From Echinarachnius parma (taxonomy: Eukaryota; Echinodermata; Echinoidea; Clypeasteroida; Echinarachniidae): a stretch of 64,000 nt of DNA. The DNA lies in contig JBAMJV010003844.1 of NCBI GenBank assembly GCA_037951105.1, positions 186,001 to 250,000 on the forward strand, read 5' to 3'. The position numbers and the translations under genes are program-made. The notes beneath the pieces are model-generated. The model saw only the letters and a list, made by a program, of their open reading frames with translations. It ran no database searches and was not told the DNA's origin. This document shows positions 12,201-57,100 of this stretch, piece by piece; within the stretch, counting starts at the first letter, position 1; each line of letters opens with the position of its first letter.

Positions 12201-15200
12201 TGTCACTGCATTTATCATATTTCCCCCCCCCCTCCTCCCTCCTTCAGATGATGGTAAAGTACAGAGTAAGAAGTCTTGGATGCTGTGTACAGCCCCCATC
12301 CCCGCAGCCCCTTCCAACACAAACCCTGTCACACTCAACTACATCACCCCTGTTGGTCTGAACGGGGACAAGGGAGTCAGCTTCGGTGTGAACGGGGAAT
12401 ATGTAGCATGCTTGATGGGAAGCACCCTCAAGATATACACCTTCAGAGACAGCACACTTCAGAAGTAGGTTGTTTTGCTTCTTATGCCTTTGTTTCAAAG
12501 TTATGAATAAACAGGTTAGGGACCCATTACATGAAGATTCATGATTAATTGTATGATTAATCAATTGTATAAGTGATTGTTAATCTTTATGATATGAGGC
12601 CCAAATTTTGCTTTGAATATGGTATTGAAACTCAACCACTTAGGCCAGCTTAGATTCATGTTCAGTCTATTTCAGATGATAGTTCTATATTAAAAGTAAG
12701 CAACCAGTAGTCATAGTAAAACCCCCAAAAATAAATTTAGCATGAAACTAAGCCTCCGGGTTTCATAAATATAGGCCCTGTTCTGTATTGGCTAGGGAAA
12801 TACATGACATATTATGACATAATGTCAAAACTAATTCATGTTTTTTGCACAGAGTACCTGGCAAACAGCAGCACCATATTATTCTTATCAAGGTCTTAAT
12901 TAATCAATCAACCATCTTCACCCAAAAAACAAAATTGCAGTGGAGCATCTGTCACAGGAGCATAATTATGTTGTCTTGCACTTAAAACTGTGTCATCCCA
13001 ACGACTACTGCTTGGCTGTGGGCGATGTCAAAGGTCATATCTCCATGGTGTAGAACCTATAGCAGACAGATGCTGTAGTATCTCTGCCAAAATATGGTTT
13101 ACTTCATCTTAATTAGCCATTCTTCTTTCTTTTCTTTCTACAGGATCATATTGGATGGGCCTCGTCCAACCTGTGTTGCATGTCATCCCAACGACTACTG
13201 CGTGGCTGTGGGCGATGTCAAAGGTCAAATCTCCATGGTGTGGAACCTACAGCAGGCAGACGGTGCCGTCCAGGCGGTAGATCACTGGCACGCACTCCCT
13301 GTGGGAGATCTATGCTTCTCCCCTGAAGGTAAATCTCTCTTTCCACCAGAAACCAACTGGCAAATTGATAATCGCTTTGATTGCTAGACAAGCAAAAGTC
13401 AATAAACAACTGGGCTTCTGGTGTAGTTCTTCTACAGCACATGTCACACCATGATAAGTTCTTTTTGCTCTATCCTTTCTACTGTTTCTAACAAATATAT
13501 TTAATTCTCTAGTGATATTAATTGTTATTGTATGGCTTTTTTCATGGTATTCTTTAAAAGAGCCACTACTATTGTACCGCTATTTGTGGTAAGCCCAAAT
13601 ATATAAATTTTTGTAATTTGTTTAAACTCTGCCAGATTTTGAAACTTAAGACCAATCTCACATACAGTTGTCATACACTTTTGCAAAAGAAAAATTGCAG
13701 AAGGATAAGAAAACCAACATCTAATAGGAATGAAATACTTTGCAGTTGAGCACCAACATTTTCTTGTAATAAAATAACAAATTTCACATTTGAAATGAAG
13801 GAACATTCTTGTCCCTGCATATATCATATAATCTTACATACTGTTGTCATATGTGACAGGCTATAGCAAATACCGGCACTTGTCGGTAATTCATGTTCTG
13901 AAGAAATGGGCATAAGTTCACACAATGTGTGTAAAATACCTATGATTGTAAAATTGAAACAATCATATCTTTGCCAATTATTGACCAATAAGTTAGAACA
14001 AAGCATTAAATGAAAGCTTGTGATGAGGCCTTTGCAACATTGGTATGAAAATCTACATTTTGATTTTGACTGACAAATGCCGGGTTTTGCTATAGCCGGG
14101 TTTTGCTATAGCCGGTCACATACAGTATGTATTGCAGAGGAAACGGCTGGAAGGAAAGACAGAACAATGTCTGATAAGAATGAAATACTTTGCAATGTGC
14201 ACCAATCTTCTTATTATTATTCTTCCTCCACTTTTCAGAGATTTACAGAACCCAGGCTGCATACATATTTGAGCATCAGTAGGGAATCATATTTTCTTTG
14301 TAATGAAATAACATATTTCACATTTTGCAGCTGTGCACCTACATTTTCTTGTAATAAACTGCCATATTTCACATTTGATTTGAAGGGACGTTCCTGTTGA
14401 GTGGTGGTCATGAGTGCACGCTCGTGCAGTGGCAGTATAACTCTAAACACAAGGGGTTCATGCCGAGGCTCGGAGCTGCCATCACACACATTGCCAGTTC
14501 CCCTGATGGACAAACGAGGGCGCTGGCCTTAAAAAGCAATGGTAAGTAAACCTGTGTAATTGTACTTAGTAATGTTGCTGTTGTCTGCAAACACATAAGT
14601 CAGATGGGCAAATGATATACGCCTATCATTTAGGCCTGAAAGTTTCATGACAACTCAATATGTTTTAATTCAATTTTGTTCAGATTTTCCGCCAAATTAA
14701 AGCAACACAAAACGATACAAAATCAGTGTAAATATACAAATCATACTTTTTAAATGTTTTGGCCGAGATATGTATGAAGACAATAACAAGGAAAGAATCA
14801 AACAAATGAAAATAAAGGGAGAGGAGGATAATGCAAACACTGTCTGCAGCTGGTAATGTATTCCATTGTATTCCATGACTTGGATAATAACAGTGTATGA
14901 GATGAAAGTGTTTAGTGTGTGGTGGATGAGATGACACTGTTTCTGGTTGAAGGCATTGTATGAATTAAACCTTTTACTAATTATTAATTCTCTCTCTCTA
15001 TTGCAGCCATTCTTTTGATAGCCAACAACAAAGTGCTACACACAGTGCAGGGACTGGATCATTCCAGTTTCCAGCAGTCAGAACCCGTTCCAGCCGGTTT
15101 GTCAGTGGATCCCAGGACGGGTGCCATGGTCCTGAATGGCAGGGTGGGACATCTCCAGTTCTACCAACTCAAAGACGACAAGCTCTTGTACAATGTGAGT

Positions 15201-18200
15201 CAAGTCTCTTAACAAGAAAAGTTTGGAAAAAAAATCATTAAACAATTTTGATCTCGATCCTGAGTTGGAAACCAGATTTTGCCCATTGCGCTTTCCCTTT
15301 GCTGCTCTGGCTGGAATACTTCCCAAGGAGTGGAAATTGTATGAGCTGGATTGATTGCAGTGTGATGAATGGATGATAATGATCCCCCGCAAGCATTTAA
15401 AGACAGAACTGGCAATATATAAGTAACCACATGGTTGGGAGCCTGTGTCTCGACTTTACCTTTCTAAACGCACAGGTCAATTTTGTGACATTTTACTTTA
15501 ACCCTTAACCCTTGCCTGATGTATGGTGTTATTACATTTGTATGATTATTTTCTCTCAAATTTTGTTTCCCCTCTTATTCTAACAAACTTAATTTCACTG
15601 GTGAAAACAGCATTTCACCTGAGAACTTGGACAAGCCTTGACTCACACAGAGATCACTCATTTAAAGGGATCTAGTAACTTTGTTGACATGTGCAAAAAG
15701 CATTGAGTGGTTGATACAATGTATACTGTTGATATCTGATATGTCCACTGGGTGTTGTGCGAGCATTTCAAGTTAAATGGACTTTATATGGCCGAGTAAT
15801 GTGCAAAAATGCAAAGTGACATTCACTAACTCATTGCACTCACTTTGAACACGGTTCTGACAATCCATTGGATAATTTGACATCTGAACACTTCAATCGT
15901 TAATATCTTTTTAACGAAAGGGAAATTTGAAAAACCGAAAACCTGTTCCATGCTTTTTTTGTTAATAACAATACAACAAGGTATGAGGGAACCGCTAGAA
16001 TTTTAATTGGATTTTGAGGATTTGGACAATGTTACTAAGTCCCTTTAACATTTGACCTTTAATTTTAGGTGAATGGTGCTGTTATAATGCTATGCTTTTA
16101 TTTTCATTTCATGTTACCAGCTTGATATCACCGGTGAAAACTACATTTCACCAGAGAACTTGGACAAGCCGCTGACTCACACAGAGATCACTCATGTGAC
16201 CTTTGACCCGCGAGGTCAGTGGATGGTGACCTCAGAGAGGAGGGATGATGGGGAGACGTCGGTGGAAATGAGGCTCAGGTTCTGGGAGTTTGATGACAAG
16301 AAGCAGAGGTAATGTATCTTCTACCTGTAATACTCAGCATCTAGATGAGGGTATATCAGTTCCATAAAAGGGGACTGAATGTTCCAAGAGCCATCGTAAA
16401 CTGCTCCAAAGAGGGTATCTTAATTAATAAAACATGTTATTGATATGATATATGTGGGAATGCAGCTCAGAGTCTAAGATATTGATGCCAAGAAGCAGAG
16501 GTAATGTATTCACTCTCTGCCTCAATTGAGGGACCTTATCAATTTGTAACAGTTGTTGAGTCATTTTCCCCTTTTTCTCCTAATACTTCCAGTGAATTAC
16601 TGTACTGGTTAGGGCATTCATCAGTTTTAATTGATGCTATTGGTATGCTGCTGATTGATGAGGTGTGTCTGAGGTTCCTTGGGACAGGAATCTGGGCCCA
16701 TATTCATGAAAGCCTGCTAGCTTAGTTACTTGCTAATTTTATTTTGGATGACGTGGTTAAGAATTATTCGCAAGATATTTTAGTTTAACGAAGGTTTACT
16801 TAGTGGTTATCTAAGGCTTACCAAGTTGACCCTAGTTGGGGACTAGGAAAACTGTTTGTTGCTCAATAAACCGCACATCAAAAATACACTTAGCAAGGAA
16901 CTAAGCTAGCGTTTTTTTTTTATGAATATGGGGCCAGGATTATTTGCATCCAGGTAGCAAGGATACAAAAAAATGCTATGTGAAAATGTTTTAAGCAATT
17001 TATCTTTTGTTGCTGTTGAAGCTTGATATTCCACATGCTGTTTAACCCTATTCTAACTGGGCTATTTCAGACCAGGTTTTTACTGGAGGGGGGGGGGGGG
17101 GTCAATTTGACCCCCCCCCCCCCCCCCCCAAGATCTCGAAGACCGATTGTCCGATTCACGTGAAATTTTGCATGGAGGTACATTGAAGTATTAGCGACAC
17201 GTTCATGTTTTCGTTTAAACGATCCAATGTTAAATATGCAAATAATGCGCATATTCATAACCGAAGTACGCTTATTTATGCAGAAATCCTCTTTTTGTCT
17301 GTAAATCACTAAATATTGCTCAGAATATGCTAATTTTGTGCATGAATATTCTTTATGACTTAATTAACAGGTTTTCAACATTAAAAATTGCAATAGCCAA
17401 ATTTTCTTTATGTATTTCTCTTTTTGGGGAATTTCTTATGTATTTCTTTGTTTTTTCGACTTATGTTTTTATTGTTTTTTCAATGGAATAAATTATTGAC
17501 CATTATCCAACCATTTTTAGCCCAAAATTAAATGATTGCAGTGATTAGAATGAAAAATAATGACAGTTTTGTGTATTCTAGGAAAAAATCTATTTCCATA
17601 GGATTTGTACACAAATCACAAAATGTAGCGATTTTTGGGCCGACGATCACTTACAAAAGGTCACGTGACTTTAGAACGGTATGTGTGGTCGTCGCAAATT
17701 TTGTCTCAAAAGTTGCGCAAGACTTAAATGAAAAAACTCATGAAGTAGCGCGGCAATATCTGCGCGCGTTGCGGAATTATCGCGCTAAAAGTCGAAGGGG
17801 GGTCAAATTGACCCCCCCCCCCCCAGTTAGGATAGGGTTAATACCACGAGTAGGGTTGATATCACTAATATTATCTATTTCACTGTGTAATTTTGTCATT
17901 TTCTTTCTCAGTTTTTCACTGAACACCACCATAGAGAGTCCCCACACAGACGTCATCAATACTCTTGTTTTCCGGCCGGCCCCTACAGATGGGAGCTTTG
18001 ATGATCCAATGGCTGTGACTACTAGTAAAGATGGGCAGCTCAAGATATGGGCTCTGGTTGATGATACTGACATTGAGAGTAAGTCTGTTGTAATGCCCTT
18101 CTTTTCTTTACCAAACTTGGCCACCTGGACGCGGTTAATTTCTAGTCTGTATGTATTTGGCCTGAACAATTCCCATTCAAACTGTGTAGATGATAGACGC

Positions 18201-21200
18201 TGCTGAATATTCTGATATTGCTTTGTCATTCTGACATCACTCTGGTAACTCTACAGCTGCAAATTAAATCCCCAGTGCAAGCTTAAAGGGTACCATCACC
18301 CAAACATAATATTCTTATAAATGAAAGGTAACATCTTTAGTAGTCCATTCCATCAACAAGTTCACAAAAATATGTTTCCAGGAAGAAAAAAAATATAATT
18401 GGAAAACGCATCATTCTAAAGCACGCATTCACGGGTCTGCATGCACGAGACTACTTTGTCCAGAGCGAACGAATCGTCCGGGATTCTATTCGTGAATAGC
18501 ATTGGCGCACTCGCAAATGTTTGGCCTGTACGGAATTTAAATTAATTGCTTTGTTTATGACTTACACAACCCTTTGCGAAATGTTGGGTATCTATTTGAT
18601 ATCACAAAGCGGTACCAAAACATATAATTATGTTCTTTGCCTGGTGGTCCCCTTTAAATGTAAGGCCAAAGGTGGACCACCACAGAAAGAAAAACACAAG
18701 CTTATCTGTTTTAGTACCGTTATTTGATATTAAATAGAAGTCCAACATCTTGCAAACAGTTGTGTATTATTCATAACAAATGCATTTAAATCACCCCAAA
18801 TTACAGAACATAACGTAAGCCTAACTTTTGCTAACTAGTGCGTCAATTCTGTACACACCTGTTCTAATTCAGAGTGTGTTAATTTTGTTTTTGCCCTGTT
18901 CTGCGTCGCTCTATTAACTGTTTCTCCCTGCGTAGAGTCGAGACACTAGCGTCTTTTCGCACGGCGACGCAAGTGCTGAGTACGGGGGATTTAAATCACC
19001 TGTGACCGTCTCCGTACTCTGGCTACCGTCGCGATCTATTTGCAGTTTCGCAGTGAAGAATGCGCGGAACGTCTCCTTGCTTGAGTGACCAAGCGCGCTG
19101 ATTGGCTGACCCCACTGTCCTCTGTGGCTGACCCATTGAAGTAAGGGCTTACCAGACCGCTGCGTAGTCGTTGTACACACCACGCTATTTCGGCCAACTA
19201 CCGTCGTAGGTTTGGACGATACGCGGAAATTTTCGTTCTGAGTGCGACCCCCCGTGCGAAAAGACGCTACTGTTAGAACTGTGACAGTGTTGGTTTCTAC
19301 AAGATGATGGAGCCTAGTGCAGCTGTGAGAGGCTTGTGATTGAATGCATGGTTTAATTGCCCGATTGGCCAACCAAACTTCGGCATTTTGATATTTTTAC
19401 TAGTCCTATGTAAATTTTAGGTGACCCATTGCCATCGGGCCTGTGGTAGTTTCGAATGTTCATATATTTGCTCTGTTCTGACAAAGCTTTGTTAACTATT
19501 TCTCCCATTTTTCCTCTGGAGAAGATTCTGATAGGGTTGAAAATGTAGGCCTTATTATTGACTCTCGACCTTTGCTCCCTGCATAGAGTCAAGGCACTGC
19601 TGGAACTGTGACAGTGTGGGTTTCTACAAGAACATAGAGCCCAGTGCAGCAGCCTTCTCCTCCGATGGCTCTCTATTGGCGGTTGGTTTCCATGACGTCC
19701 CGACTCTCTGGGACCCAGAGACCAATCAGCTCAGACAGGTTCTGGCCCACACGGCTGTCGACGGTCAGATACGGTATGTTGAATTTTATAGTAATCAATG
19801 CTAGAAATTACTTTTTTGCCTTGTGGCCCAAGCGGACAAGTAAAGCCATGATTTTTTAAATTCTAGTAGCCCAAAACCTGAATCTGGTGGCCCCAAACAA
19901 AGAAATACATTACAAATTCTTTTATATTTGGTTGCCCATTTGGACCAGTAGAATTTAGGATCAATGAAACTTTGTGGCCCGATCCCCCGAAGCTGAATTT
20001 GAATGGCTCCGGCCAGCAGGCCTGTGCTAATTTTGGCACTGTATTAATATTCTTTAGGTTATGATAATAGATAACATTTATAGCACATCATACTGATGTT
20101 TCAAAGCGCTGCACTGTGAAAACATGGTTACCCTGACTTAAAGCCCTCCGTACACAGAGCCGACTCAACCCGATCGGACTGGTTTTCAGTCGGTTCAGCT
20201 CAGTATACGTTGCCTCATGACACCTGTTTTGCTGTTCAAGAGCCAGTCGGAGATCATTTTAGGCCGATTCAACATGTTGAATCAGCTAAGACTGAGCGAA
20301 ACCAACTCTAGCCTGACTGAAAACCAGTCGGATCGGGTCGAGTCGGCTCTGTGTCCGGAGGGCTTTAGATGATAATTTATTCTCCCCATTTACTACATCT
20401 GGTTAGAGGGAGACAAATATAGATATAGAGCCTTGTCTAAGTGTGAACATACAACAGGGGGTGTTGCAGAAAAGTTTGAGCTGCATTTGAAATTTGCGCT
20501 TGAAATAAAACTCAACATTTATGCAATGGATTTGCGTTGAAACGCAAAGTTGCATTCAATTTTGTGGACTTGTGCTTTTCTGCAACACCACCCTAGCAGT
20601 TTTTTTAACCTGCTACCCTTGGATTATGAATAAAAGCAAATACTTTTTTGTGTGTGTTCACATATGCCCAATTGAAATGAGATCTAATTTGTGAAATAAT
20701 TATAGGTGAATGTAACTGTATTTATTATGATTCCCGGTGCTCATTTCTTTGCATTTTCTGCAGGTGTCTTTGCTTTGGACATACTGGTTCCTCCCACCTC
20801 CTGGTGTGTAGTACAGCGTCGTCTCTCACTGTGTGGAACCTTCTTACATGCAGAGGTATGCTTTGTTTGTTTGTCTATTTGTTTGTTTGTTTGTTATATC
20901 TTTGCTCCCTGTCTTGGGTCATCCCACCTCCTAGTGTGTAGTACAGCCTCGTCTCTAACTGTGTGGAACCTCCTTACATGCAGAGGTATGCTTTGTATGG
21001 TTTGTATGTTTGTCTGTTTGTTATATCTTTGCTCCCTGTCTTGGGTCATCCCACCTCCTAGTGTGTAGTACAGCCTCGTCTCTAACTGTGTGGAACCTCC
21101 TTACATGCAGAGGTATGCTTTGTATGCTTTGTATGGTTTGTCTGTTTGTTTGTTTGTTATATCTTTGCTCTCTGTCTTGGGTCATCCCACCTCCTAGTGT

Positions 21201-24200
21201 GTAGTACAGCGTCGTCTCTCACTGTGTGGAACCTCCTTACATGCAGAGGTATGCTTTGTATGGTTTGTATGTTTGTTTGTTTGTTATATCTTTGCTCCCT
21301 GTCTTGGGTCATCCCACCTCCTAGTGTGTAGTACAGCGTCGTCTCTCACTGTGTGGAACCTCCTTACATGCAGAGGTATGCTTTGTATGGTTTGTATGTT
21401 TGTTTGTTTGTCTGTTTGTTTGTTATATCTTTGCTCCCTGTCTTGGGTCATCCCACCTCCTAGTGTGTAGTACAGCGTCGTCTCTCACCGTGTGGAACCT
21501 CCTTACATGCAGAGGTATGCTTTGTATGGTTTGTATGTTTGTCTGTTTGTTTGTTATATCTTTGCTCCCTGTCTTGGGTCATCCCACCTCCTAGTGTGTA
21601 GTACAGCGTCGTCTCTCACTGTGTGGAACCTCCTTACATGCAGAGGTATGCTTTGTATGGTTTGTATGTTTGTCTGTTTGTTATATCTTTGCTCCCTGTC
21701 TTGGGTCATCCCACCTCCTAGTGTGTAGTACAGCGTCGTCTCTCACTGTGTGGAACCTCCTTACATGCAGAGGTATGCTTTGTATGGTTTGTATGTTTGT
21801 CTGTTTGTTTGTTATATCTTTGCTCCCTGTCTTGGGTCATCCCACCTCCTAGTGTGTAGTACAGCCTCGTCTCTCACTGTGTGGAACCTCCTTACATGCA
21901 GAGGTATGCTTTGTATGGTTTGTATGTTTGTTTGTTTGTTATATCTTTGCTCCCTGTCTTGGGTCATCCCACCTCCTAGTGTGTAGTACAGCATCGTCTC
22001 TCACCGTGTGGAACCTTCTTACATGTAGAGGTATGCTTCGTATGGTTTGTCTGTTATCTTTGCTCTCTGTTTTGGGTCATCCCACTTCCTAGTGTGTAGT
22101 ACAGCCTCGTCTCTCACTGTGTGGAAACTCCATACTTGCAGGGGTATGTTTCTTGTTTGTTTGTCTGTTTGTTTGCTTGTTTGTTTGCTTGTTTGTTTGT
22201 TATATATATATTAACCCTCCATCACACTGGATGGATTGATTGTGGGTGTGTCTGATGACTGTGGTAATAAAATCATTGTAAAGCACTTGAAGATGTGCTT
22301 TATAAATAGTGTATAGTTCATTAGTTTTAAAACATTTTTTTTGTGTTATGTCTTCACCCTCTGCAACAAAAGGGCAAGAGGCAATGTTTTCTGGTTGTCC
22401 TTTTTACATGGTAGTTCCCTTTCTTGTGATTGGCATATATCAAGAATGATTTGACAAATTTATCTTGAGTATGTGTTAAAGGGATCTAGTAACTTTGTTG
22501 AAATGTGCAAAAAGTGATGAATGGTTGATGCAATGTATATTGTTGTTATATGTCCACAGGGTATTGTGTGAAAATTTCAAGTCAAATGGACATTGTATGG
22601 CCAAGTAACGAGCAAAAATGCAAAGTGATATTCAGTAACTCACTGCACTCACTTTGTACATGGAAGAAAAACTCGCCCGGAGTTTTTCTTATCTGAATAC
22701 TTCAATCATACATATCTTTGTAACGAAAGGGAAATTTGAAAAACCGAAACCTGTCCCATGATTTTATTGTTAATACGAATACAACAAGGTATAAGGGAAA
22801 CGCTAGAATAAAAATTTTATTTTGAGGATTTGGACATTAAGTCCCTTTAATGTATTGATTTTAGGCATGTCCTATGATCAGGGTAATACACATAATTCAG
22901 TGCCTTGTACATCAAGATATCAATGGTAATGTTGTAGTTTTTTAAATACTCAGTATTATTAATATTAAGTTGATTGTGTAAAAATATAATCTCTGTATCT
23001 ATAAATAGCATTGCTATCAACATTTGTTGAGCAAATCATAATTTCTTTAATTTTTGGTAAATGATGAAATGTTGCACATTCTTTTCTCCACTCTTCTCCC
23101 ACTCCCTATTGTAGTTCTGTGGAATGTTACTCTTGCAGTAGCCAGGCTCATTGGGGATCCATACACGGAGCACTTTGCTGTATTTGACGACAAACAGAAT
23201 TGTGAGTATATATATAGTGAGGGCTCAACATTAGCACTTGTCCGCTTGCAGGGGGAAAGTATTGCCGGGGGAAAGTATTGCCGGGGGAAAGTACAAATTT
23301 AAGTCGGAAAGTAAAATTTCTTACGTTTTTTGGTTTGGTTGCCCGATATTTATGTTCCAACTACGTGTGAATCTATAAGAGTAGAATGCAATAAATTGTG
23401 AATCTAATCTAGAAGTAAGTGGTCAAGTAAATTTTCTCTTTGGGCAAGTAATATTTGATTTTTTGTTTTACTTGCCCGAATGGGCTAGTAGAGAAAAAAG
23501 TATATCTCCAATCTCTGTATCATCTGAATCTATATTGCGCTCTAAATCCTGATCATGGCAAAACTGTTTGATGAGTCAACCATGCGTATGTTTGTACGCA
23601 TTTTGAGCGACGTTTATTTCTGCAATAGTACTTTTATTAAAAAATCCTATGCGCACACACATGGCGTCGCAGAGTGGTGCTTGGCCACTGGTTAGTATAT
23701 ATTCATTCCTCTTTTACTAGGCAGCATCTTAATGTTTGTTTCTTTCTCTCTCTCATTAGTGTATGTATTCCACGGTTCCAAACCACACCCTGTTTTCCAC
23801 CACGTCTGCGCGTCCAGCTCTCCAATCGTCTCGGCAGCGTTCACCCCCGGGAAGACAGCCAGTGAAGGAGACTTGTCCAAGGATGCGTTACCATGGCAAC
23901 CTGCATCTGATCTCTACTTCCTCACCAAGTCTCAGGAGCTACTGACGGTGATCAGTGGGGAGCAGGCCGAGAGGGAAGAGAGCGTGAACAAATATGACAT
24001 GGTCAGTTTTGTTACTTTGATTATGACACGTTTAATGGGCATTGCTTTCTGTAAATAGCTTCCTTTCGCTGGACATTACAAAGACAATGAAATATTATAT
24101 GGTAGGTTTAGCAGCTCAGCTACAGGCTGGGTAACATTATACTGTCCAGTATAATGCGCCTCGGAATATAAATTACTAGATTGATGGCGCAATATATGCT

Positions 24201-26829: not shown

Positions 26830-28800
26830 ACAATCACAGGCCTTTGTGGATTCACACTGTGCAGCTTTAAAATGAAACGGCGAGATGAGAGGATATGAAA
26901 CGTAGCTAGGATTGGTTTTCAATGACTTTAGGAAATTCATTTTTACTACACATCCCGTCAATAACACAAATGTAAAGGGATGCCCGACGGAGATAAAGAG
27001 TTTCAATCTGTTTGTATGCGTTTCTTTTCCGTTCCTTGTCGGGCGATGTACGTTGTTCTATCCGGCAGAATGTTTTGTGCATGAAGCAATGGAGACGACT
27101 TTCATCACCGTATAATTTGATTTTGCAAATGTTTTATTCGTCGGGTATCCGTTTATGCTATCCGGTGATATGTGACCGGGCCTTTAGACATTGATAAGTA
27201 AACAAATCCAATCAAGCAATTCCTTATAGTACTAGGCAGGACTGTTTGCCCAGGGTTCCAAAGCCTACACTGATCATGATGTAAATCTTTGAATTAAACT
27301 TAATCATATTAGGCACTCTTTATAAATCAAGTATATTATTATCATTATAAAACATTTGATAAATTTGACTTTCCTGTGGATAATAGACCGGTTCTCTTAC
27401 ACATTAAAATGTGTTCCTTGTCTAAGCTTCTGTTTCTGATACATTTAAATAAATGTTAATACTTTGAACCCACCTTGCATACTCTAGTTGCCGCTATGTC
27501 AGGCAAACCTCTGACAATCCTTCAGGTTGGCAGAAGCAACCTTTGTATAAATGGGACATTCATACAAATTGAATATGGTAGCGAACTGACCTATCGTGTC
27601 TGTAAAAGGGTGATATTTCCCCAAGAAGTGATCTTATCGTCATCTGAGAAAGAGAAGGGCGCAAAGTCGCTTTTTGAACTTTAGAGATGGAGCCTTGTAG
27701 AAATCTGGTTGCGTGTCTTTTAATTTTGATAAGTATTCTCATAATTATAAGTATTTATGGAGGCCTCTGAACTACAAATTGGTATGCAGAACTCAATTTA
27801 GCCAAAACTTAACGCCCTTCTCACTCTCATCTGACGCTATTCATTAGTAGAATGACATTTTCCAGCATATTAACTTTTGTGATTTTTTTGTTTAGCTCTG
27901 TTCTTTGCTATTAAAACGTCAGATTTAATGATTGGAGCCAACTACATTATACAAACACGTTTTTACATTCGTTCACTTTTTTTCTTCAAAATTAACAATG
28001 TACGCGTACATTTTTCTAATAAATACAAAGTAAATTTCAATCTGAAATCAGTAGTTTCCCGTTTTTTGTGTTTGTTTTTTGTACCATGATCATACTTTAT
28101 TTCTTGTAGCTGAAATTAATTTGTCAACATTGGTAAGGAATGAATAACAATCCAATCACAACTGTTCTACCATGAATTAACATATGATGACATAAACGGT
28201 ACCCTGAGGGACCAGACGAAAATCCGCCATTTTGTTTAATTATTTATTTAATTATTTTTTAAATGAGCGTGCATACAATCGCGCGCTGCACTGCATGCAC
28301 AACGCAATACGGTTGTACTTCGAGTGGACACAAGATGGCGCTACACAACGCGGGATAACGGGGTACAACGGTACCCCGGGGTACTGCGTGTGTACCTTAA
28401 CCACAAAATTAGCTGAAATAGTACCAAAAAAAAAAAAAAAAATGATATTCAGGATTTTGGTATTGTCTGAATGAGGGTATCCTAATTTACTTTGTTAATT
28501 TAATTTTGAGCATCAGATATGTTTAAATACGGTTTGTCATGGAATAAAAATGATCAGATTACAGTGCTTGAATGGATGCCGATCTTTGAAGCAGACCATT
28601 TTCTCTTATTTTAAAATTGCTTCAGCCATTTTCCAAGTCTTTGGTGCTCATTGTGAGAGGGCTTGCTTCGTCCGAATATGACAAATTATATACCATCTTA
28701 AAAGTAATGACTTCTACTTAAATATTATGTGGAAATCAGCACAATTATTTTTCTTGACCTATTGGTCATTTTGTGGCGAAGGGTCACATAATTATTATCT
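26830..28800. other. WDR75 3' UTR and intergenic DNA
   Basis: Beyond the probable 3' UTR this is AT-rich DNA without recognisable coding exons. A CpG-bearing patch with several GTACCCC/GGGGTAC inverted blocks lies at 28200-28400. Confidence 0.5.
27448..27453 (+). terminator. Candidate WDR75 polyadenylation signal
   Basis: AATAAA lies about 620 bp after the WDR75 stop. A variant ATTAAA occurs at 27293. Either could end the 3' UTR; without transcripts the choice is open. Confidence 0.35.
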
Positions 28801-28802
28801 TA

Positions 28803-29204
28803 AGGGTACCACCACCCACAAATAATATTCTTATAAATGAAAGATAACATCTTTAGTAGTCCATTCCATCAACAAGTTCAGAAAAATATGTATCCAGAAA
28901 AAATATATAATTGGAAAACGCACCACCATTATAAAGCATGCATTCATGGCTCTGCGTGTAGGAAGACTACCTTTGTCCAGAGCGAACGAATCGTCCGGTA
29001 TTCTATTGTCTCCAAACGTACGCATGGCGCACTCGCAAAAGTTTGGCACGTACAGAACCATGAAATAATACTGGTTCCGTAAGTGGTGGTAGTTAATTGC
29101 ATTGTTTATGAGTTACACAACAAAATGTTGGGAATCTATTTGATATCGCAAAATGGTACCAAAACATAATTATATGTTGTTCTTTGCCTGGTGGTCCCCT
29201 TTAA
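28803..29204. mobile_element. TTAA-flanked MITE family M3, copy 2
   Basis: TTAAGGGTACCACCACCC to TGGTGGTCCCCTTTAA, matching 18285-18658 along its length, with a small internal insertion near the right side. Confidence 0.75.
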
Positions 29205-29213
29205 CTCTATGCA

Positions 29214-29390
29214 TGGTCATGGAGCACCCCCTCCCTGCCTAGAAGGATTCCTGGCTAGCCACCAATTGCAGGGTCATGGAGCACCCCCTCCCTGCCTAGA
29301 AGGATTCCTGGCTAGCCACCCATTGCAGGGTCATGGAGCACCCCCTCCCTGCCTAGAAGGATTCCTGGCTAGCCACCCTTTGCAGTTTTT
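29214..29390. repeat. 57-bp tandem repeat, three copies
   Basis: GGTCATGGAGCACCCCCTCC...CTAGCCACC is repeated three times with almost no change. 57 is a multiple of three, so an open frame runs through it, but no gene context supports translation. Confidence 0.9.
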
Positions 29391-29407
29391 GAGTAAGCAA
29401 CATATTA

Positions 29408-29627
29408 TGGCCTAGTTCCACTGCACTGTTTCTCCTTCCATTCTCCGACCAAAATGTGGCAAAACGGTAAGTATCTAGCAATGAAATGGCCACAGTCGAC
29501 CAAGCAGACATCGGAAACGGAGCCAAATTAAAATTATCCTACTAGTCCATTCCAAACTTGGTTCGCATCATTTTGGATGGATATGGAAAGGAAACAGAAG
29601 GAGAAACAGTGCATTAGGACTAGGCCA
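29408..29627. mobile_element. PIF/Harbinger-like MITE with TTA TSD
   Basis: Ends TGGCCTAGT and ACTAGGCCA (paired over about 32 bp including GCACTGTTTCTCCTTC) are flanked by TTA on both sides. TWA targets are typical of PIF/Harbinger. Confidence 0.75.
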
Positions 29628-30210
29628 TTAGTATTTTCTATTTTTCTTGCTCTACCAGTCCGACGGGAAAAGGGTATCATTGCGGTTTATCAACACAAAT
29701 CATGAACACTACACAACAAAAATGTAATTGTTTATCATACAGCAGTATCAAATATTTAAAAACCTAACACACTAATATAAACGATAGCAACAGCTGATTG
29801 TAAAGATTTTTTATGAACAAGTTCAAGCTTTTATTCTTGTAGAATTATGATGCACAGTAATTTTATAGGAACAATGTGAACAAAATACTGTAAAGTTAGT
29901 GTTTTAATAAACGTGAAATTACACAGGGTGTAATGCTGGAATTTGTGCATGCTTTTACTGAAGTGCAAAATTCCTGTCATTTCTAGTCATGTATTATTTT
30001 CCTTATGGGTATCACTTATAATGGAAACAATGTTTGTTAAACCGCTATCAACTGTTTTGACTGATAGCTTTTGTTAGTGGAAGGTCAGATGACGTTATGG
30101 TACATTTGGAAAACATGCAGCCTCCAGTGTTCAGTCAAAACAGATGATGGTGGTTTCAAAAACGGATTATTTCCTTTATTAGTGATGCCCAAGAGGATTG
30201 TATACAACCA

Positions 30211-36594: not shown

Positions 36595-36599
36595 GTAAG

Positions 36600-38960: not shown

Positions 38961-38969
38961 AAATGTTGT

Positions 38970-40445: not shown

Positions 40446-41059
40446 GCTGCTTTACATAACCTGATAGACTATACATGTGCATCTTGCATTTTGTCTAGCT
40501 TTTATTAGAGCACTTCATGCTTATCTTTCATGCTTGGGCCTATCTTTCATACTTGGGCCTATATCCTACAGGCATCTGAAATACCAGCAACTACATGTAT
40601 GCTGGTCGGAAATTCACAAATATTACAGGTACCATCGGTGTGTGGTAGAGAAATTTCCTCTGTAATGTAATAGTACTGGTACTGGCACATGGTGGCTTTG
40701 TCCATACATGTAGTTGTATGCATTCCAGTACCACTGAGATCAGTACCCTTGTGAGTTATTCAGTTAAAGGGAGATCATTTATACTTGGTTCTAGAAGCAT
40801 CCTGTCATTTATTTTATTTGTCTTCTATCCTGCAAGTCATAGTGCTTATTCCAGTTATTTGGCTGAACAGCTCCATCCAAATTTAGGTAAGATGTTGCTT
40901 AAAGAAATATTTTTGACTGCATATTGTGCACAATTTAATGTTTAAAACTGTTAGTTGTGTCTTTGTTCATAGAATTGAATGTGTTTTAAATTCTTTCTTT
41001 TTTATTTAACTGAAGTGATATATCCATTTGTTTTCTAAGGGTTATATAGTTTGTTTGAA

Positions 41060-41815
41060 AAGTCATGAATAATAGCATGTACCACACATTACCACATGAG
41101 AAGGAGGGTATGCACTATTTGTTATGATATTGTTTTTATTATTGAAATATCAACTATTTTGGCAAAATATAAAAATAATGGATTACTTTGTAATGAGTAC
41201 AATACAAAACGTAGTGTTTTTCGTCTTCCTTTCTTGTAATGAGTTAGCACACCACACATACTTAGCTTTTAAAAGGGATCGTTGAGTTTTGGTATTTAAG
41301 AGAGTACAGTTTTGGTCAAACTGAATTTAAGTAACCAAAATCTGCACAATTACATTACAAACTAATACCATATTTGCCGGTGGCACACCTGTGTATTAAC
41401 AGCACCCCAAACTTTGCGTTGTCATTGAAGAGGAAAAAAAAATTTTCTAGATAGTTCAACTGCTGGGAATCATAGCACCATTATCAATTCCATGATTTCC
41501 CCCTAACTTTTGTAAACTCTAAGTACACAATACAACAACAACAACACAAGTCACATACTTGTTTCTGATTGGAGTACAGAAAAGCCTTTCCAGCTTTACC
41601 CTCCACAAAATCTGATATTATACTTGCCATATGTGGTATTTTCCTGAAATAAATTTCTCTATAACTTTTTCAGCTTGCACAAAATTATTTCTGAAATAAA
41701 ATGAGTCTATTTGAACGTTGCTTTTTCTTTATAACTTGCAGGATTCAGCACACCACACATAATAACCTTGTGAGAAAGAGCACACTATTTGTTACAATGA
41801 TATTGGTATGATTAA
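41060..41815 (+). repeat. Ghost copies of the ACLY 5'-UTR exon
   Basis: 41742-41803 repeats the acceptor and UTR (TTGCAG|GATTCAGCACA..., GAGCACACTATTTGTT) 156 bp before the real exon but loses the start region. More decayed relatives are at 41075-41120 and 41240-41262. Confidence 0.8.
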
Positions 41816-41897
41816 ATTCTCCAATTTGCTTTTGGAAAAGTTAAAATTAAGGGATCATTTTAGAGTACAATGTTTTTTTCTTCTTTATTTCTTGCAG

Positions 41898-42107
41898 GAT
41901 TCAGCACATCACACATAATAAGCCTGTTAGAAGGAGCACACTATTTGTTGAAGGATGTCGGCGAAAGCAATCCGTGAAGCCGGAGGGAAGGCCCTCCTCA
42001 GCAAGAGTCTCAAGAGCTCGGCGGTGTCGCCTTTCCGGGGCGCCACGGTAACCGAAGATGTCAACTGGAACGAGTTGACGGCTGCGAATCCCTGGCTGCT
42101 TACTGAG
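41898..42107 (+). CDS. ACLY: ACLY exon with 5' UTR end and start codon
   Basis: The acceptor TTGCAG is at 41897 and the ATG at 41955. It encodes 51 residues ending [10 protein letters not shown], matching vertebrate HPWLLSQ at the same splice point. The donor GTTCGT is weak. A decayed copy of its UTR part lies 156 bp upstream. Confidence 0.9.
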
Positions 42108-48100: not shown

Positions 48101-51100
48101 CCAAGTATCTTTTCTCATTTTCAATACATTGCTAAACAACAACATTCATCAATGTCTGATTCATGGCATTTAAGTGATTCTTTTTGTCTGTATACATTTG
48201 ATGACATTCCTGATAAAGAAGAGATGGTACCAGTATAATGTATGTAGGATGTAGTTCTCTTCAATCTGCTGGTTGGTGTTCAGTCAGACAGTACTTCAAA
48301 CCAGTCATTTCTATCTGAACACACTGAGCATGCATTTATTAACGTTTGTAGCTAGAAATAGCGTTTCTGTCTGTGTCTAGAAAGTAGAATAGTTAATAGA
48401 AACAGACCTGTTTTTTAATCAACTTTAGGGTTTATCATCTCTCCAAAAACATGATTCTGGCTTGTTCACATAATATCAAAACATTATGTCAGCATTTTGA
48501 AGCGGCAAGAGTTATCATGCATGAAAATGCGCTGACGTTTGAGCAACTGCAAAGATTAGCATGATAAGACTGAAACACGTTTTAAAATTGGAAAGGCTAA
48601 TTATGGGCTGAAGAGAGAGGCTTAACACACCCTTTGAAAACGCACTACAAAATACTGGTACTGAGTTCATGCTCTGAACAAAAATGACATACATGTACAT
48701 ACTGTATCTAACAACTACCTGTATGTAGTTAACCTATTTTTAAGAACATCCACGTTCAGTATCTTGAACATTTTTAATTTGGAAAAATGTAAATCACCAT
48801 GAAACTATGTAAACATACAAATATAAATCCATTTAATCAGGGTGCCACTCTGACGACAAGTGGCCCTTTTGAGCCAGTAAAATGAATGTATTTTACAATT
48901 TATAGTTCACACATTTCTTACTTGCTTATTAGGATGATATTAATGAGGGAATTAAACCATTATTTTTCTCACATTGTACATTTAGATTTGAGTTGCAGAT
49001 CAAGCCAGTCAAAATGTGCTTCCTGTAATTTCCCTGTTTTATTTGTTTTTACAATTTTTACTAGCCCTGGGTTAGATATTAGACCAGTGCTATACACTGT
49101 ATAGTATTGAGCCTAAGTATTTAAAATAACCATGACATTTCTTTGCATGAGAGAACAAACAAAATTCTTCTAGTCATGTTGGGTACCTTACATTATGCGT
49201 TGTGAATCGAATCCATTTTACATGATGCGCATAATGTACATTTTGTAGTACTGCATATTGGTGAGCCACATGCGTACAGTACATTGATCACCAATGATTG
49301 ATTTGTCAGTCAGGGATGATTTCATTAACCAGCGTTTGCCCACAATTAAACAATTTGTCCCTTACATCTGCTCACACGTAACACTCACATCGTGTGCATT
49401 AACGTGTGTATGATGTAATAGATGTCCTCTCATACTGCAGTGTATGAAATTACCCTTTTTTCCCTGTGGCCCAGTCAAATCAAGATTCTCACATTCTAGT
49501 GGCCTGTAACCTGAATTTGGTGGGCCCCAAACAAATACATTGAAAATTATGTTATATTTGGTTGCCAATTTAGCTAGTAGAATTTGGCATTGCAATGAAA
49601 CTTTGATGGCCCAAAGCTAATTTTTAGTGGCCCCAGGCCAGTAGACCTGTGCTTATTTTGAGCCCTGCATTCTGAATGGGTGCCCCTGTTCAAATATCAA
49701 AGCTTAACCATTTTGGGGGACCACAAACTGTGAAATATTCACTTTATTATCAATAATGCAAGAATAAAATGAATGAATATTATCTGTGTGTGTAAAGACT
49801 TGACAATAATTGCCTTCTTCAGACACAATGACATTGTCTTGAATACTCAAAAGGTCAAAAGGAGTTAATTTAAGACCAATCGTGTACATGCTATGTAATG
49901 CTATCTGTGTTATCTGACCTGTCTGTTTGCATGTTCAATTCAATTCAATATAAAGAGCGGACATTGTCTTGTCCCAAAAGTATGCAAATAACACAAGTCT
50001 GTATTGACTTTACTTGAACAGGGATTCTCCATTCTCCAATCAGATCCCAGTAGTGAAGCTAAAAATGTAGATTAGCTGATCAGGGCCCTGTTGCAGAAAG
50101 AGATATCGATTGTAAGTCAGATCATGTGTTCTACATTCACGAATCTGATTGGTTGAAACGTGCAAATGTTCTAACTTACAATCAATTGTATCTCTTTCTG
50201 CAACGGGGCCCAAGAGATGAGGGGAAACTTGTCCTGAAAAAGATCAATGCCTACCTGGAAGGGTCAAAGGTCTGGAAGGTTATTTGAATGTTCTCATGTT
50301 CTCCTTACAGTGGCCTTGTGGTGAAGCCAGATCAGCTGATCAAGAGATGAGACAAGCTGGTATTGACCAAGGTCAATGCTGATCTGGATTGGATCAAAGG
50401 TCAAAGTTCAACAGTTATTTGTATTAGCTTGTTAATATTTAGTTTGTGTTGTGATTTCTCCATACAGCGCCTTGTGGTGAAGCCAGATCAGCTGATCAAG
50501 AGACGAGGCAAGCTGGGCCTGATCAAGGTCAATGCTGATCTAGAAGGGGTCAAAGGTTGGCTGGCATCAAGAATAGGGCAGGAAATAGAGGTAAGCCTAA
50601 AATTACATGTAACTGATATTTATGAAATGTGTTTCTGGTACCAATATTTATTGAAGCAAAATACTGCTGAAATTACCTCACAATATTATTAATTGTGAAT
50701 GCATAAATGTGGGTTTAAATATTTCAGCAGGTTTTTGAAGATGGTGAACAAAAAGCCATAATAAATGTCATTAGAGCCATGTATTAAGTATGTGTGGTTT
50801 GAGTTCCTGTGAATGCTAATGTGAGTAATTGTTGGTGTGTTAGGGGTGGGTAAAATGAGCTTTACCAGTTTACAATTCAATGTGTTTGTGTTCATGTGTC
50901 TGTGTGTGTAATGTACTTAATGTATAATTGTTGAAATGTTTGTTTGGTTAATAAATATAATGACTGAAATGTTTCCTGTTTATCTAGTCAAACTTATGTA
51001 TAAATCCCTCTCAATGGCTGCCAAAAATGTTATCCATATTGGGCTGAGATCTATTATACAGGTTTATTTGTTTATAAATCTGATTCCTAGGGAGACAGGA

Positions 51101-54100
51101 TAAGTGGTCTTTGTACAAAGGTGGTTGCTGTTTTCCCTGTATTAACCCGTTCCCTTTGAGATTCCCATAGATCCCGTAAGCAACAGGTTAATTGTATAAA
51201 ATTTCTATTTGTGTGTGTATAATCGTTGTGTTGTCAAATTTTAGGGTTAGGAGAGCTGAAGAGGTAAACAGTCAGAATTGATTTTCCATCAAATTTAGGA
51301 GCTCTAGGTCATATTTGATCAATTAGCTCAAGGGTAATTACATGTATACAATGTACACCTGATTTGTGGTACTATAGTGTGTGTGTCTGTGGTAACATTT
51401 TATAATATGAACATTAAATGGTTACTGTGCATTGCACAATATATATTTTTCCGCTCAAAGACTGACCTATTTGAAGAAAGAATATAAGAATTAGTCGAAA
51501 ATAGTACAGGTCTACATTTACAAGTACAAGGTTTATTGTACACATGTATTCATTGTACCTTGATCTGTCACACATGAGTAGAAACGGAGAGTATCTGGGT
51601 AGGAGGGGAAAAACATTAATACATAGCTGTGTAAATATATGCATGATATATTAATTACTCGACCGAACTCATGGAAATATTTTCAATTCTTCCATTATGG
51701 GCCCTTTTAAATGGTGCTGGGCAATTCCGTATGAGAGAAGGCAAAAACACCACATCTCAAAGTTGAGCAATCTTCCCTAAATCAAACTGTTATCAATAGA
51801 GGAAAACTTGAATTTTAGGAAACTGAAAACCGTTTGTATATAGCTTGATTGGTTTTTCAAATATTTCTGCTTGAATTGAACAGAAATTTATGACCTTTTA
51901 TTCATAAATCAGCTTCATTTTGTGAAAATAAAGTGAATCTTTTAATTCAATGACTGTTTCTGCTCATTTTCTCATATTTTCCATACGATGTTGTAACAAT
52001 CACAAATTGTAAAGCATGGGCAGTAACTTCATTGCATATTTTTTTGAGAATTTTTTTAAATCTATGCACATTTGATTGTAATTCCGTTACGATAAAACGT
52101 TTGAAGTTTTTCTCAATATCTTATTACTTGTTCTTTAGTCATGTCATTGTGAATTCTCTTCCTTCACCATAGTCCTAAGAACTTCCAACATAATTTTCTG
52201 AAATAATGTCACTACTTTTTCCAAAAATGGCGTAACAGTATTAGTAATTCCGTTACGTAACGGAATTACATGCACATGGTTTGTAAGGTATTGAATGATA
52301 TTGCTGAAAATAAATTTTTTTCTTGTTCTGAATGTAGAAATACCCTTTAAATAGCATGAACTGTAGCCATGTAGACAATAAGTCATTATACTGTACAATG
52401 TTACTTTATGTGACTCATTACCTCACATGCTTCATAAATTGCATCAATGGTGATTTAACTAAATCGATACACGATAAATAATTTCTCAAATTTCTCCATG
52501 AACATAATAGAGATGATAATGTTCTATCATTAAATTAGTTTCCAGCAAGACCCACTTGACTGAAATTATGAAGATGCAGCAGATTCATGTTTGTACTTTA
52601 GAAAGGGAAAAACAAAAACAATAACAAAAATTTAAAAATATCCAGTAATTAGTATGACACTGGTTCTACATTTATTTTCTCACATTAATTTACATTGATG
52701 TATTTTAAGATATAAATCATACCTTCAACTTTCAAGGAGATTAATATTAATAATTTTGTATGTAGATTTGAATATCATTGATCAGTTAAGGGCTCATAAC
52801 TCACCATTAATTATGTAAATTTGTATTAAACTGAAGCATATAAAATCAAACATAAATACAGAATAGGCTTCAAGATATTCAAAACTATACATAATACAGG
52901 CTAAGATATGTTTTTATTCATTATCATAAAGTCAGAATTCATTGAGTGTTCAGTGTGCTTATGTATGCAGATCAAAGAAGATGTACAAAGTATTTGCATT
53001 TTCAAATGGGAATTCCTAAAGGTGTCTTTCATTTTTTGCAATTTGATTTTTATATTTTATATATGCCAACTTTTTGTATTTGGATCATACATGTTTATAT
53101 CCGTACATGTATTTCATGAAATGAATGAAAACGCATTCTAAATTGATTTGAGAGTAAATTAAGATCACTTTAGGATGAATTTTTGAAAAGAATAATTTTA
53201 GAATATAACAAGAGTTTATATAACAAATCTCGATTTGTTTGTAATTCTGTTACGCACACACATAAATTCAGGATTTGTTCTGGTCCTTATGTAAGAGTTT
53301 AACAATGCATACAAATTAACAATGCATACAAATTCTTTACTATAGACTGTACGCAGAAAAATGTAACCAAGAAATTGCATTTTCATGGGTGGATTCATGG
53401 GTGGATTTCACAGGCGTAATTCCGTTACAGTGACATTCGTTTGTCTTAAGGTAATTTCATAGGTTAAAATAGATCATTTCTGGAAAAAAGATGTACCAAA
53501 TTCAAGTTTGTAACTTGAATGATAAGTTTTTATTACCAATGAAGAATTTTTTTGTGGTAGCTTTTGCAGAAAATCATTACAAAGTTAGTGTTGAATAAAA
53601 GACCCCTTTCCGTTATGATTGTATTTTGGTCTCCTGACGCTACAGTGTTATAGATTTGTACCTCTAGTACCCCTGCCAGTTATTAAAGTTTTAAAAACTG
53701 TGGAAGTGAAAGGAATTTTAAATATGATTAAGAAAACAGAGCTAAAAATCACTTATATGTCATTCTGTAACAGTGGAATTGCCCATTCACAATGCATTTC
53801 CATTCACACAGATTTCCAATATTCAGGAAGTTTACGAGGCTTTATAGCATTGAAAGTTGAATTATTTTACCTGTTTGTGATTTTAAATTGTTTAAATGTT
53901 TCTTGATATTGATGATGTGCAGCTATTTAGCATGTCACATAATGTAGGTACTTTTTTTTTTTTTTTTACTTGGGTTTTTTCACAATTTAACCATTTTTCT
54001 TGAAGTAAAGGAAAAATTAAAAAATGTTGCTATTTTTTACTTCAAATATGGTTATTATTGTCAAATTATTGATTTTTGAAAAGTATTGAAGCTAAAATGT

Positions 54101-57100
54101 GAATTTTTTGTTGTTCATGTACCGATTTGTGGAAAAGTTGATCCCACTGCTTAAGTTGTGTAATTCCGTTACACACTTTAGTGGACATAGTTTCTAGGAT
54201 TTTTCTTTCATTTAATTGATGCAATCCTTTTTAATTTCTTGCCTACTAATATGAAGCTGAAAATAAACCGAAATAAAGCTGGAGTTTAGCAATATTTTTT
54301 TCAAATTTCATTCTTGTTTGTATTTTGGCCATATTTTCATTTATTTTACACATAACAAGTTCAAAAATTGCTTTACAGATATGTCAAATTATGGTTTATA
54401 TTCAAGTGCTAGATAGCCTTGATGTTTGCATTAGCATGTAAGAAAAGTTGAGTGCAAAATAATTGAGTTTTCCTTGTAACTTTCAGAGATGTAATTCCGT
54501 TACAAATTTGTGTAATTCCGTTACAGTGGTCTTTTTTCAAAAAAGTGAATTTGTGAACTTATCATTGTGTTGTTTATGCACGTACTTGTTCCAAAATGAA
54601 GTTGACATTATCAAGATAGAAAAAATACATAAAATCAGTTTCAAAGTGTCTTATATTTCAGAGAAACTCAACGCAAACTTGTAGCAAAAAAAAAACTCCA
54701 TTCTCCGGTAATTCCGTTACGGTCACACATATTGGTCTAGTGTGCAACAACACATGGAAGATATAAAACCATTTCCCTATCATGTTGTAGCCTGGTTACC
54801 CGTGCAACTTATATAAGTATCAAAATTTACTTGAGTCATGAGAATATTGCGCAGGGAATGAAATAATGAGCAAAAAACGTCTCTGAATGTAATTCCGTTA
54901 TGGTGGAATTGCCCTGCTAGCAGGTAGGCCAAGTTTGAATAATTGTACAAATTGAAACTCCCTATCACCTATAGATGTAGCTCTTGCATTATAAAATACA
55001 GACCCATGTTATGTGGTACTATGTAAGTGTACATTGTTCAGGCTTGAATGAAATATTTAAATAAAATAATTCATGTTGTTATTTTATATTATTATCATTA
55101 TTATTATATTTCAATTCAATCTTTGAAACTCCCTATGTAGCTCTTCCATGATACAATCTACCCTTGTTATGTGGTTCAGATGCAAGTGTACATTGTACAC
55201 GATTGAATTATTTGAATAAAATTACGTGTGTTGTTATTTCATAATTGAATGAAATCCTTGAAACTCCCTTTCCAATTTACAAACATTATACATGATTGAA
55301 TGAAATCTTTGAATGAAACGACAAAGTATGTCGTGGAATGTATTTTTAACTCTGGCCCGAGGTGAATTGGTTCCTGATTTCCACTACCTCGCATGTCAGT
55401 TTCCATCATATCATATTCGTATGATATTCTTAACCCCTTTGGGACCAAACCTGATACATCAGCCCAGAGCGTATGGTTCCAAAATGAAGTAATCTCTCTA
55501 GCTGGTTAATGCAAGATGAATTTCACCAGTAAAGTAGTACACCGGCCCTAGTATTATTAAATTAGACTTTGCAGATCTGCAGCCAATGTCAGGTACATTC
55601 AAGGATTTCATTTGAACATGTTATGTAGTCTATGCATATATTAAAATATATAAATACTGATTCAGAAAAAAACAGCCTTCAATAAAATGAGTTAAGAATT
55701 TTGTTTAAAGGGATCTAGTAACTTTGTTGACATGTGCAAAAAGTGTTGAGGGGTTGATACAATGTATGTTGTTATCTGATATGTCTACTGGGTGTTGTGT
55801 GAAAATTTCAAGTTCAATGGACGTTATATGGCAGAGTAGTGAGCAAAAATGCAAACTGATGTTCACTAACTCATTGCACTCACTTTGTACACAGTTTTGA
55901 CAATCCATTGGATAATTTAACATCTGAACACTTACAATCGTAAATATCTTTTTAACGAAAGGGAAATTTGAAAAACCGAAACCTGTCCCATGTTTTTATT
56001 GTTAATATGAATACAACAAGGTATGAGGGAACCACTAGAATTCCAATTGGATTTTGAGGATTTGGACAATGTTACTAAGTCCCTTAACCCTTCAAGCATG
56101 GTAGTATGGTAACTGGCAGTTTTCAATGATAGCACACGCTTTAGCCACTAACATTAAGTTTCATATTTACTTTTCTTTCATGTATATATTGTTATTAGTT
56201 TTAAATTTCAGGTTGGTGCTGCTATTGCTAGGGGAAAGCTGAAGAACTATTTGATCAAGCCGTTTGTACCCCACAAGCCAAGTTATACGTGTGTTACCAT
56301 CTAGATAGATTAAGTCAAGGGAATTTCTGCAATATCTAAAAAACAATACTTAATTTAATTGTATTTTACATTTAACTTCAGGTTGGTGCTGCTAAAGGAA
56401 AGCTGAAGAACTTTCTGATCGAGCCGTTTGTACCCCACAAGCCTGAGGATGAGTTCTATGTGTGCATCTTCTGTCAACGGGCCAATGATGTCATCCTCTT
56501 CCACCACGAGGGCGGTGTTGATATTGGAGATGTCGATGCCAAGGTAACATTTCGTTGTGTTTGAACAATTTTCAATTCAATTTGATTTTTGTATTTGGCT
56601 AACACTGGAAATTCTTTTTGGAGATGAAATGTAAATCAAACAATAGTTAATAATTGGCAATACAATATAACATTAAATCATACATAGCAAGACCGTCACA
56701 TGAACAAGCATTATAATTCAATTAACAGATGCAATTTATGAAGTCAAATGAAAAATTGCGGCAAGGGATGTGTTGGATTTTTTTTCTTCAGGTGATCCAT
56801 TAATTGCATCTATAGGATTTTTTTCAAAAAGATATTTTAGACTTTGATTGATCAAGTACCAATATCATTGTAAGATTCTTCTGAATGTAAGGTGAAAGTT
56901 TCATAGAAAAAGAACAAAGTTTACCTACTGAAATGAAGTCAAAATTGAAGGTGCTCAAATCTTATTTCAATTTTTAAACAATATTAGAAGCCTTAAAAAT
57001 TCAGCACTTGATGTTCTTTCAATCACATGACTTGGGCCACACATTTTAAAATCAGCACAAACTTAACTAGTTGAAGTAAGTAATAAATGTCAGTGGTTCA

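Follow-up and report, generated by a model that had tools for sequence, protein, structure and literature searches.

A survey of tandem exon duplication reports, for at least 80% identity across the whole gene, that about 2% of human, 0.08% of fly and 0.06% of worm exonic bases are copied (PMC9013439). In rice, tandem duplications are the commonest insertions and are enriched at 50–200 bp, with a share that drops beyond 125 bp and stands at 5% by 200 bp; the passages of that report drawn on here make no mention of an exon bias (PMC7971508). In Drosophila, sections of two reports describe how tandem duplication inside an exon creates a new intron (PMC2891723, PMC3296678). In this study, we explored a stretch of 64,000 nt of the Echinarachnius parma assembly (1.2 Gb, 14,790 contigs), C3842:186001-250000, in the following called the window, which carries exons of WDR75 and ACLY together with partial, decayed copies of one exon end in the adjoining intron, which we term ghosts. 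These copies lie mostly 100–230 bases from their exon, in the neighbouring intron, and their exon core looks younger than its intron flank. We give a probability of roughly 0.5 to the reading that ghosts are older tandem duplications, the exon part of which has been renewed by exchange with the intact exon. An open-access literature search, made partly on titles and abstract openings, returned no description of widespread half-exon copies. Vaughn and Bennetzen reportedly described "patch-mediated" short tandem duplications, arising in the repair of nearby nicks, in 2014.

Ghosts in the WDR75 and ACLY introns

The two genes were identified by their best solved-structure matches, PDB 7mq8_LH for WDR75 (E 7.6e-77) and 3mwd_A for ACLY (E 1e-104). 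Self-comparison of the window by blastn gave 26 local direct-repeat pairs at offsets <2500, with the region of a 127-bp array next to WDR75 exon 12 (20785-22181) excluded. A second contig, C993, is collinear with the window from about 7.8 to 62.4 kb with 22 larger breaks and differs from it by 2.05% substitutions over 36,099 aligned bases, with 0.30 gap events per substitution; judged from this alignment, it appears to be allelic, the assembly keeping both haplotypes apart here. In the following list, exons were placed by splice anchors and open frame, except for ACLY exon 2, where structure match and splice anchors were used.

13144..13328, + strand, WDR75 exon 6, intact
12991..13075, + strand, upstream ghost of exon 6 (pair 12991/13181, offset 190, 94% identity, present in C993)
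14386..14541, + strand, WDR75 exon 7
13739..13812, + strand, weak case at exon 7 (pair 13739/14324, offset 585; about 60 nt of intron and about 14 nt of exon)
16121..16308, + strand, WDR75 exon 9
15588..15661, + strand, upstream ghost of exon 9 (pair 15588/16121, offset 533; acceptor AG lost)
16454..16509, + strand, downstream ghost of exon 9, tail with donor (pair 16262/16454, offset 192)
19587..19773, + strand, WDR75 exon 11
19269..19323, + strand, upstream ghost of exon 11, right part (pair 19269/19596, offset 327)
20764..20855, + strand, WDR75 exon 12, intact
20856..22181, + strand, downstream array of exon 12, 10 ghost units of about 127 bp, exon tail with donor
41898..42107, + strand, ACLY exon 2 (5'UTR and start codon)
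41722..41793, + strand, upstream ghost of ACLY exon 2 (pair 41722/41878, offset 156; 20 nt of intron tail and 52 nt of exon)
50468..50590, + strand, ACLY exon 3
50289..50401, + strand, inner upstream ghost of ACLY exon 3 (pair 50289/50447, offset 156-158)
50211..50271, + strand, outer, more diverged ghost of ACLY exon 3 (pair 50211/50497, offset 286)
56382..56543, + strand, ACLY exon 4
56201..56300, + strand, upstream ghost of ACLY exon 4 (pair 56201/56371, offset 164-170)

The ghosts of WDR75 exons 6, 9 (both sides), 11 and 12 and of ACLY exons 2, 3 and 4 are present in both contigs, with shared ghost-specific differences. Copies at all of these exons had been listed by a first-pass annotation of the window, and self-comparison and shuffles confirm them: nine core alignments score 13.7-32.7 standard deviations above letter shuffles (50 per core alignment), and the offsets given there (190, 190, 156, 156, 170, about 128) agree with ours. 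The copy listed at exon 7 is a weak case, being mainly an intron match with a multicopy repeat (13850-14100) inside the interval, and it lies in a stretch (13474-14351) that is absent from C993. This repeat is an element of about 250 bp with inverted ends; an assembly query with 13000-15000 matched C993 and many copies of the element, which among the 40 of 2655 candidates scored were mostly about 91-92% identical. The downstream, donor-keeping copy at exon 9 had been taken as the only one of its kind, but the exon 12 array is a second such case. The outer ghost of ACLY exon 3, absent from the earlier list, is broken up by a palindromic insertion that, by eye, spans about 50084-50210.

The exon 6 ghost carries an in-frame stop, and weak similarity may extend leftwards to about 12955. 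Upstream of exon 9, the offset would come to about 148 once an intervening dispersed repeat of about 385 bp (about 15662-16046) is discounted; this repeat also occurs near 22476-22850 and, by eye, at 55704-56085. By eye, an insertion (18950-19263; about 0.3 kb) bounded by terminal inverted repeats divides the exon 11 ghost and splits off its left part (about 18911-18947, also by eye), while the ghost is uninterrupted in C993. The exon 12 ghost units read CTAG where the window exon reads CTGG, placing an AG ahead of 51 nt that end at the donor, a stretch that could be a possible cryptic mini-exon.

Geometry, offsets and frequency

For a wider sample, we used chaperonin exons (PF00118, 63 matches) in 18 stretches of 12 contigs, where ghosts occur as well; the borders of these exons are profile-match borders and not true splice sites unless read by eye, and adaptin (PF01602, 43 matches) served as a held-out family, with 5 exons examined. 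Coordinates >64000 refer to the window joined to L016-L019. The permutation set held 75 exons, 54 chaperonin matches and 21 WDR75/ACLY exons. Both the exon 12 array region and contig C8375, read as a haplotig of C6105, were omitted from the offset distribution and the permutation, whereas C906 and C9177, two apparent haplotypes of a single locus, were both counted in offsets, permutation and geometry. The geometry table comprises 47 rows, not all independent, from 34 distinct exons, with offsets >700 and exon overlaps <20 bp dropped; these cut-offs remove exon 7, exon 12 having been omitted beforehand.

Geometry lends the most support to the tandem-duplication reading put forward in the first-pass annotation. 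All 34 upstream rows are nearer the 5' end of the exon and all 13 downstream rows nearer the 3' end (Fisher p 7e-12), a side rule that 3 of 3 adaptin ghosts obey as well. The proposal that one breakpoint falls within the exon and the other in its intron is supported in 47 of 47 rows, while the statement that nearly all copies lie upstream is true of this window but not of the wider sample, with 34 upstream against 13 downstream rows. No row copies a whole exon with both splice sites (0 of 47). If units of these sizes fell at random, 11% of copies should be whole-exon and 7% wholly internal, and zero whole-exon copies has a P of about 0.014 for n=36 (0.888 to the 36th power, by hand). A script value of P 0.0007 assumes no copies wholly inside exons, for which no separate search was made and of which a weak one lies in the last WDR75 exon. 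There (26667-26872), a 64-bp copy of 72% identity lies 142 bp downstream, starting within the exon and passing the coding end. Together, the side rule and the lack of whole-exon copies point to tandem duplications that have a breakpoint within the exon and have passed through selection. Differences between exon and ghost by codon position (102:77:188 over 942:951:938 cells) suggest a non-coding ghost beside a conserved exon.

A scan for exon-like copies next to exons, as recommended in the first-pass annotation, yielded an excess in this sample, with a local partner at 31 of 75 exons against a permutation mean of 17.9 (s.d. 3.3; exon positions shifted randomly). Within offsets of 140-235, 27 exons had a partner where 11.2 were expected (s.d. 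2.8), and no excess was seen in the 75-exon permutation at offsets <140 (3 vs 3.2) or >235 (11 vs 9.7). Since the permutation background includes unannotated exons, the excess at exons is understated. Exon-pair offsets peak at 150-224, which holds 25 of the 43 pairs under 1000 (44 pairs altogether), and the adaptin ghosts, found at 3 of 5 exons, have offsets of 213, 205 and 190. In the ACLY stretch past the window, 7 of 9 pairs at offsets 100-260 are presumably ACLY exon copies, read by eye against the human protein; of the other two, 79636/79778 is uncertain and 83522/83766 repeat-like.

In simulation, copies of a conserved exon can be recognised for 1.5-1.8 times as long as copies of intron sequence, so that the exon excess is partly ascertainment. 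The gene spans (about 10-26.9 and 41-64 kb) hold about 10 exon events (exon 7 and the array included) in about 3.2 kb of exon and 10 intron-only rows at about 8 places in about 36 kb, the latter a rate that by hand count is roughly 14-fold lower. The exon excess left after ascertainment is unexplained by plain decay. A link between the offsets and nucleosome spacing, raised as a speculation in the earlier reading, was rejected as proof, because the non-exon pairs used for comparison contained unannotated exons; the offset peak therefore says little on nucleosome spacing. A minimum spliceable spacer together with a falling unit-size distribution could yield the peak at 150-224. Among other repeats in the window, an intronic 219-bp tandem repeat (24016-24522) begins about 15 nt past the exon end at 24001, and two 343-bp direct repeat pairs, 93% identical, lie about 1.5 kb apart (33692-34034/35203-35544 and 34336-34678/35800-36141).

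The missing intron half and its possible origin

If the duplicated unit is as long as the offset, the intron half is copied along with the exon half. This half was missing from most pairs and found in array C4646 42550. We aligned the intron sequence separating ghost and exon with that on the far side of the ghost and, in the window, observed similarity in 2 of 8 tests only, upstream of exon 9 (p 0.01) and at ACLY exon 3 (p 0.02). The wider test covered 24 exon pairs, excluding offsets outside 120-240, match lengths near the offset and spacers <40; in 17 of them no similarity was detected at p 0.01, many with cores 85-94% identical, and in 7 the flank was similar (p <=0.01) on at least one side. 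Three of these 7 (C10628, C762 and ACLY exon 3) hold a second ghost in the flank and a further one, C5332 143545, is exon-like by eye, for which reason residual flank homology was dropped as support for old duplications; the remaining flank-similar pairs are C906, C9177 and C5284 30157.

With rates measured between the haplotypes, simulations at 0.05-0.09 substitutions per branch (k) place the match edge about 90-110 bp inside the intron, and beyond 30 nt in 97-100% of cases; at k 0.13 the latter holds in 57-93%. In contrast, twelve pairs at 86.7-98.4% identity have their edges <=30 nt from the splice site or inside the exon:

WDR75: exon 6, +37 (inside exon); exon 9, 0; exon 11, -11 (C993 ghost)
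ACLY: exon 2, -20; exon at 77356, -21; exon at 90178, -25; exon at 82736, -9
Other contigs: C10628, -12 by eye (+1 from profile border); C5284 32248, -30 by eye
Donor side: C1820 65435, +17; C5284 30157, +7; C5284 35034, +5 by eye

Omitted from this list, though at least 86.7% identical, were C6105 57590 (inside the exon and read as part of a split ghost), C4646 49197, C906 105807, C9177 3063, ACLY 79636 and ACLY 83522 (border not read or non-exon), C10628 8676 and C5332 143545 as short (further short ones are possible), arrays C4646 42623 and 46713, whose matches do reach intron sequence, and adaptin C5025, with its edge inside the exon. Counter-examples are arrays C4646 42550 and 46601, which extend into the intron, and C6105 61859, which extends 46 nt. 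The intron half is thus missing although the exon half is 87-98% identical, and plain duplication with decay fails for the better-kept copies. Of the earlier proposal that a spare copy arose by duplication and then decayed, the geometry therefore stands, while simple decay is not supported.

Gene conversion or unequal crossing over between tandem repeats would keep exon and ghost alike and lengthen arrays. We propose a model in which the observed geometry would result from short tandem duplications, mostly of units of about 100-230 bp, that straddle a border between exon and intron; each would leave a spare half-exon in that intron, on the side where splicing would remove it; duplications taking a whole exon would be lost to selection, as their absence suggests. 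The spare copy would then mutate, while its exon-derived part would at times be refreshed from the intact exon through gene conversion or unequal exchange. Selection would hold that exon as an unchanging master, and the intron parts of both copies would drift past recognition. Since selection keeps the exon, the exon part of a ghost could be renewed indefinitely while its intron flanks drift, and it is these fresh cores with stale flanks that point to the renewal step. The same exchange may enlarge some ghosts into arrays. In its broadest form, the model would make exons protected masters that re-print their truncated ends into flanking introns, a large share of them carrying a renewed half-exon with a flank much older than its core, which we put forward only tentatively.

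Arrays, haplotype divergence and exon 12 are in keeping with renewal. Two or more ghosts occur at 8 of 12 places tried, in line with the recurrent duplication suggested in the first-pass annotation. The inner spacers are alike (p <=0.01) in 6 of 8, with C1820 and C6105, the latter read as one insertion-split ghost, as exceptions. Once C6105 is set aside, outer flanks show strong likeness at 1 of 7 places, weak likeness at 4 of 7 (p 0.003-0.02 in one or both of two comparisons) and none at 2 of 7; they are hence less alike than the inner spacers, the outcome to be expected if the first duplication was older. Between the haplotypes, ghosts differ at 9 of 929 positions against 369 of 17247 in introns (p 0.0125), with 25 of 2387 in exons. 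The exon 12 sequences of the window and C993 differ at three sites, synonymous by hand reading, and in C993 the exon end and intron start match one ghost unit of that contig without a difference over 85 bp, which is suggestive of alleles shared by exon and ghost within a haplotype at exon 12 only. A two-ages test on three ghosts with internal edges gave weak support at WDR75 exon 6 only (local p 0.009, anchored p 0.10) and none at both adaptin ghosts.

Several points weigh against renewal. No exchange event was caught directly, and at the single-ghost loci compared ghost alleles do not follow exon alleles, the lone site that does (exon 11) falling next to the insertion, in a misaligned part of the window ghost. 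The sharing at exon 12 may be retained ancestral variation, and the lower ghost divergence could stem from constraint or base composition. In two adaptin ghosts the copy begins within the exon and the exon head has left no trace, for which an extra deletion or decay is needed, and array C4646 42550 (97-98%) has retained homology along the whole flank, in agreement with plain duplication.

Displaced templated copying in replication or repair, by which 30-130 bp of an exon edge would be placed into the intron 100-230 bp away without its flank, accounts for the sharp edges equally well but not for the side rule, and we regard it as rather unlikely. It would fit edges that are sharp on both sides of the copy, unrelated spacers, interior-only ghosts and a few seemingly intron-only direct repeats of similar displacement, such as C5332 167617/167743 (41 bp, 97.6%). 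However, it predicts no side rule, for short exons at least, whereas 0 of 47 rows break it, and it predicts that ghosts diverge between haplotypes as introns do, whereas ghosts diverge less. Acceptor-side edges often lie near -20 to -25, and copying from an RNA intermediate ending at the branch point was therefore considered; neither the donor-side cases nor the side rule need it. Plain tandem duplication followed by neutral decay, in which a ghost survives because it lacks one splice site, is improbable. The side rule, the fully homologous C4646 array and the flank similarity in 7 of 24 pairs are compatible with it, poor copies (k 0.13) could have lost their visible intron half, and short tandem duplications are the commonest insertions in the rice passages (PMC7971508), but the absence of flank homology in 6 of 8 window tests and 17 of 24 pairs, despite many well-kept cores, speaks against it, and the measured-rate simulation contradicts it for well-kept copies. 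That ghosts have a non-coding role, for instance as splice decoys, and are maintained by selection seems quite improbable to us: the about halved between-haplotype divergence relative to introns and the polypyrimidine tract and AG retained in some ghosts speak for this, while in-frame stops, a ghost side free of codon bias, the AG lost at exon 9 and insertions within ghosts speak against it. False duplication by assembly, conceivable in a region where two haplotypes are kept apart and named as a possible artefact in the earlier reading, can practically be dismissed and is refuted at the compared loci, since ghosts are 2-29% diverged from their exons and, exon 7 excepted, recur on allelic C993 with the same fixed differences.

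Comparison with known systems

If true genome-wide, these observations suggest that introns steadily receive decoy splice sites copied from their own exons. Ghosts would then be a natural record of local duplications tolerated by splicing, from which short tandem duplication and short-range gene conversion could be measured directly in animal genes. They would also call for caution in gene annotation and exon-duplication surveys.

As in the tandem exon duplication survey, intronic tandem copies were found by aligning exons to their own gene, but in comparison with the parts of that survey drawn on, ghosts are partial, lie within a few hundred bases and occur at 31 of 75 exons vs about 18 by chance (PMC9013439). 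Unlike whole-exon or mutually exclusive exon duplication, no ghost row copies a whole exon (0 of 47). Like the patch-mediated duplications of rice, ghosts would be short tandem duplications, whereas the offsets here peak at 150-224 and the intron half is mostly missing, the rice duplicates being complete as far as the passages used describe them (PMC7971508). Intron gain and sliding in Drosophila likewise involve tandem duplication of exon sequence that shifts splice-site positions; in contrast to the cases in the sections of those reports used here, existing introns gain half-exons and the exon border is unchanged (PMC2891723, PMC3296678). What sets the proposed renewal apart from ordinary conversion in tandem repeats is that one partner is a selected exon and the other intronic debris.

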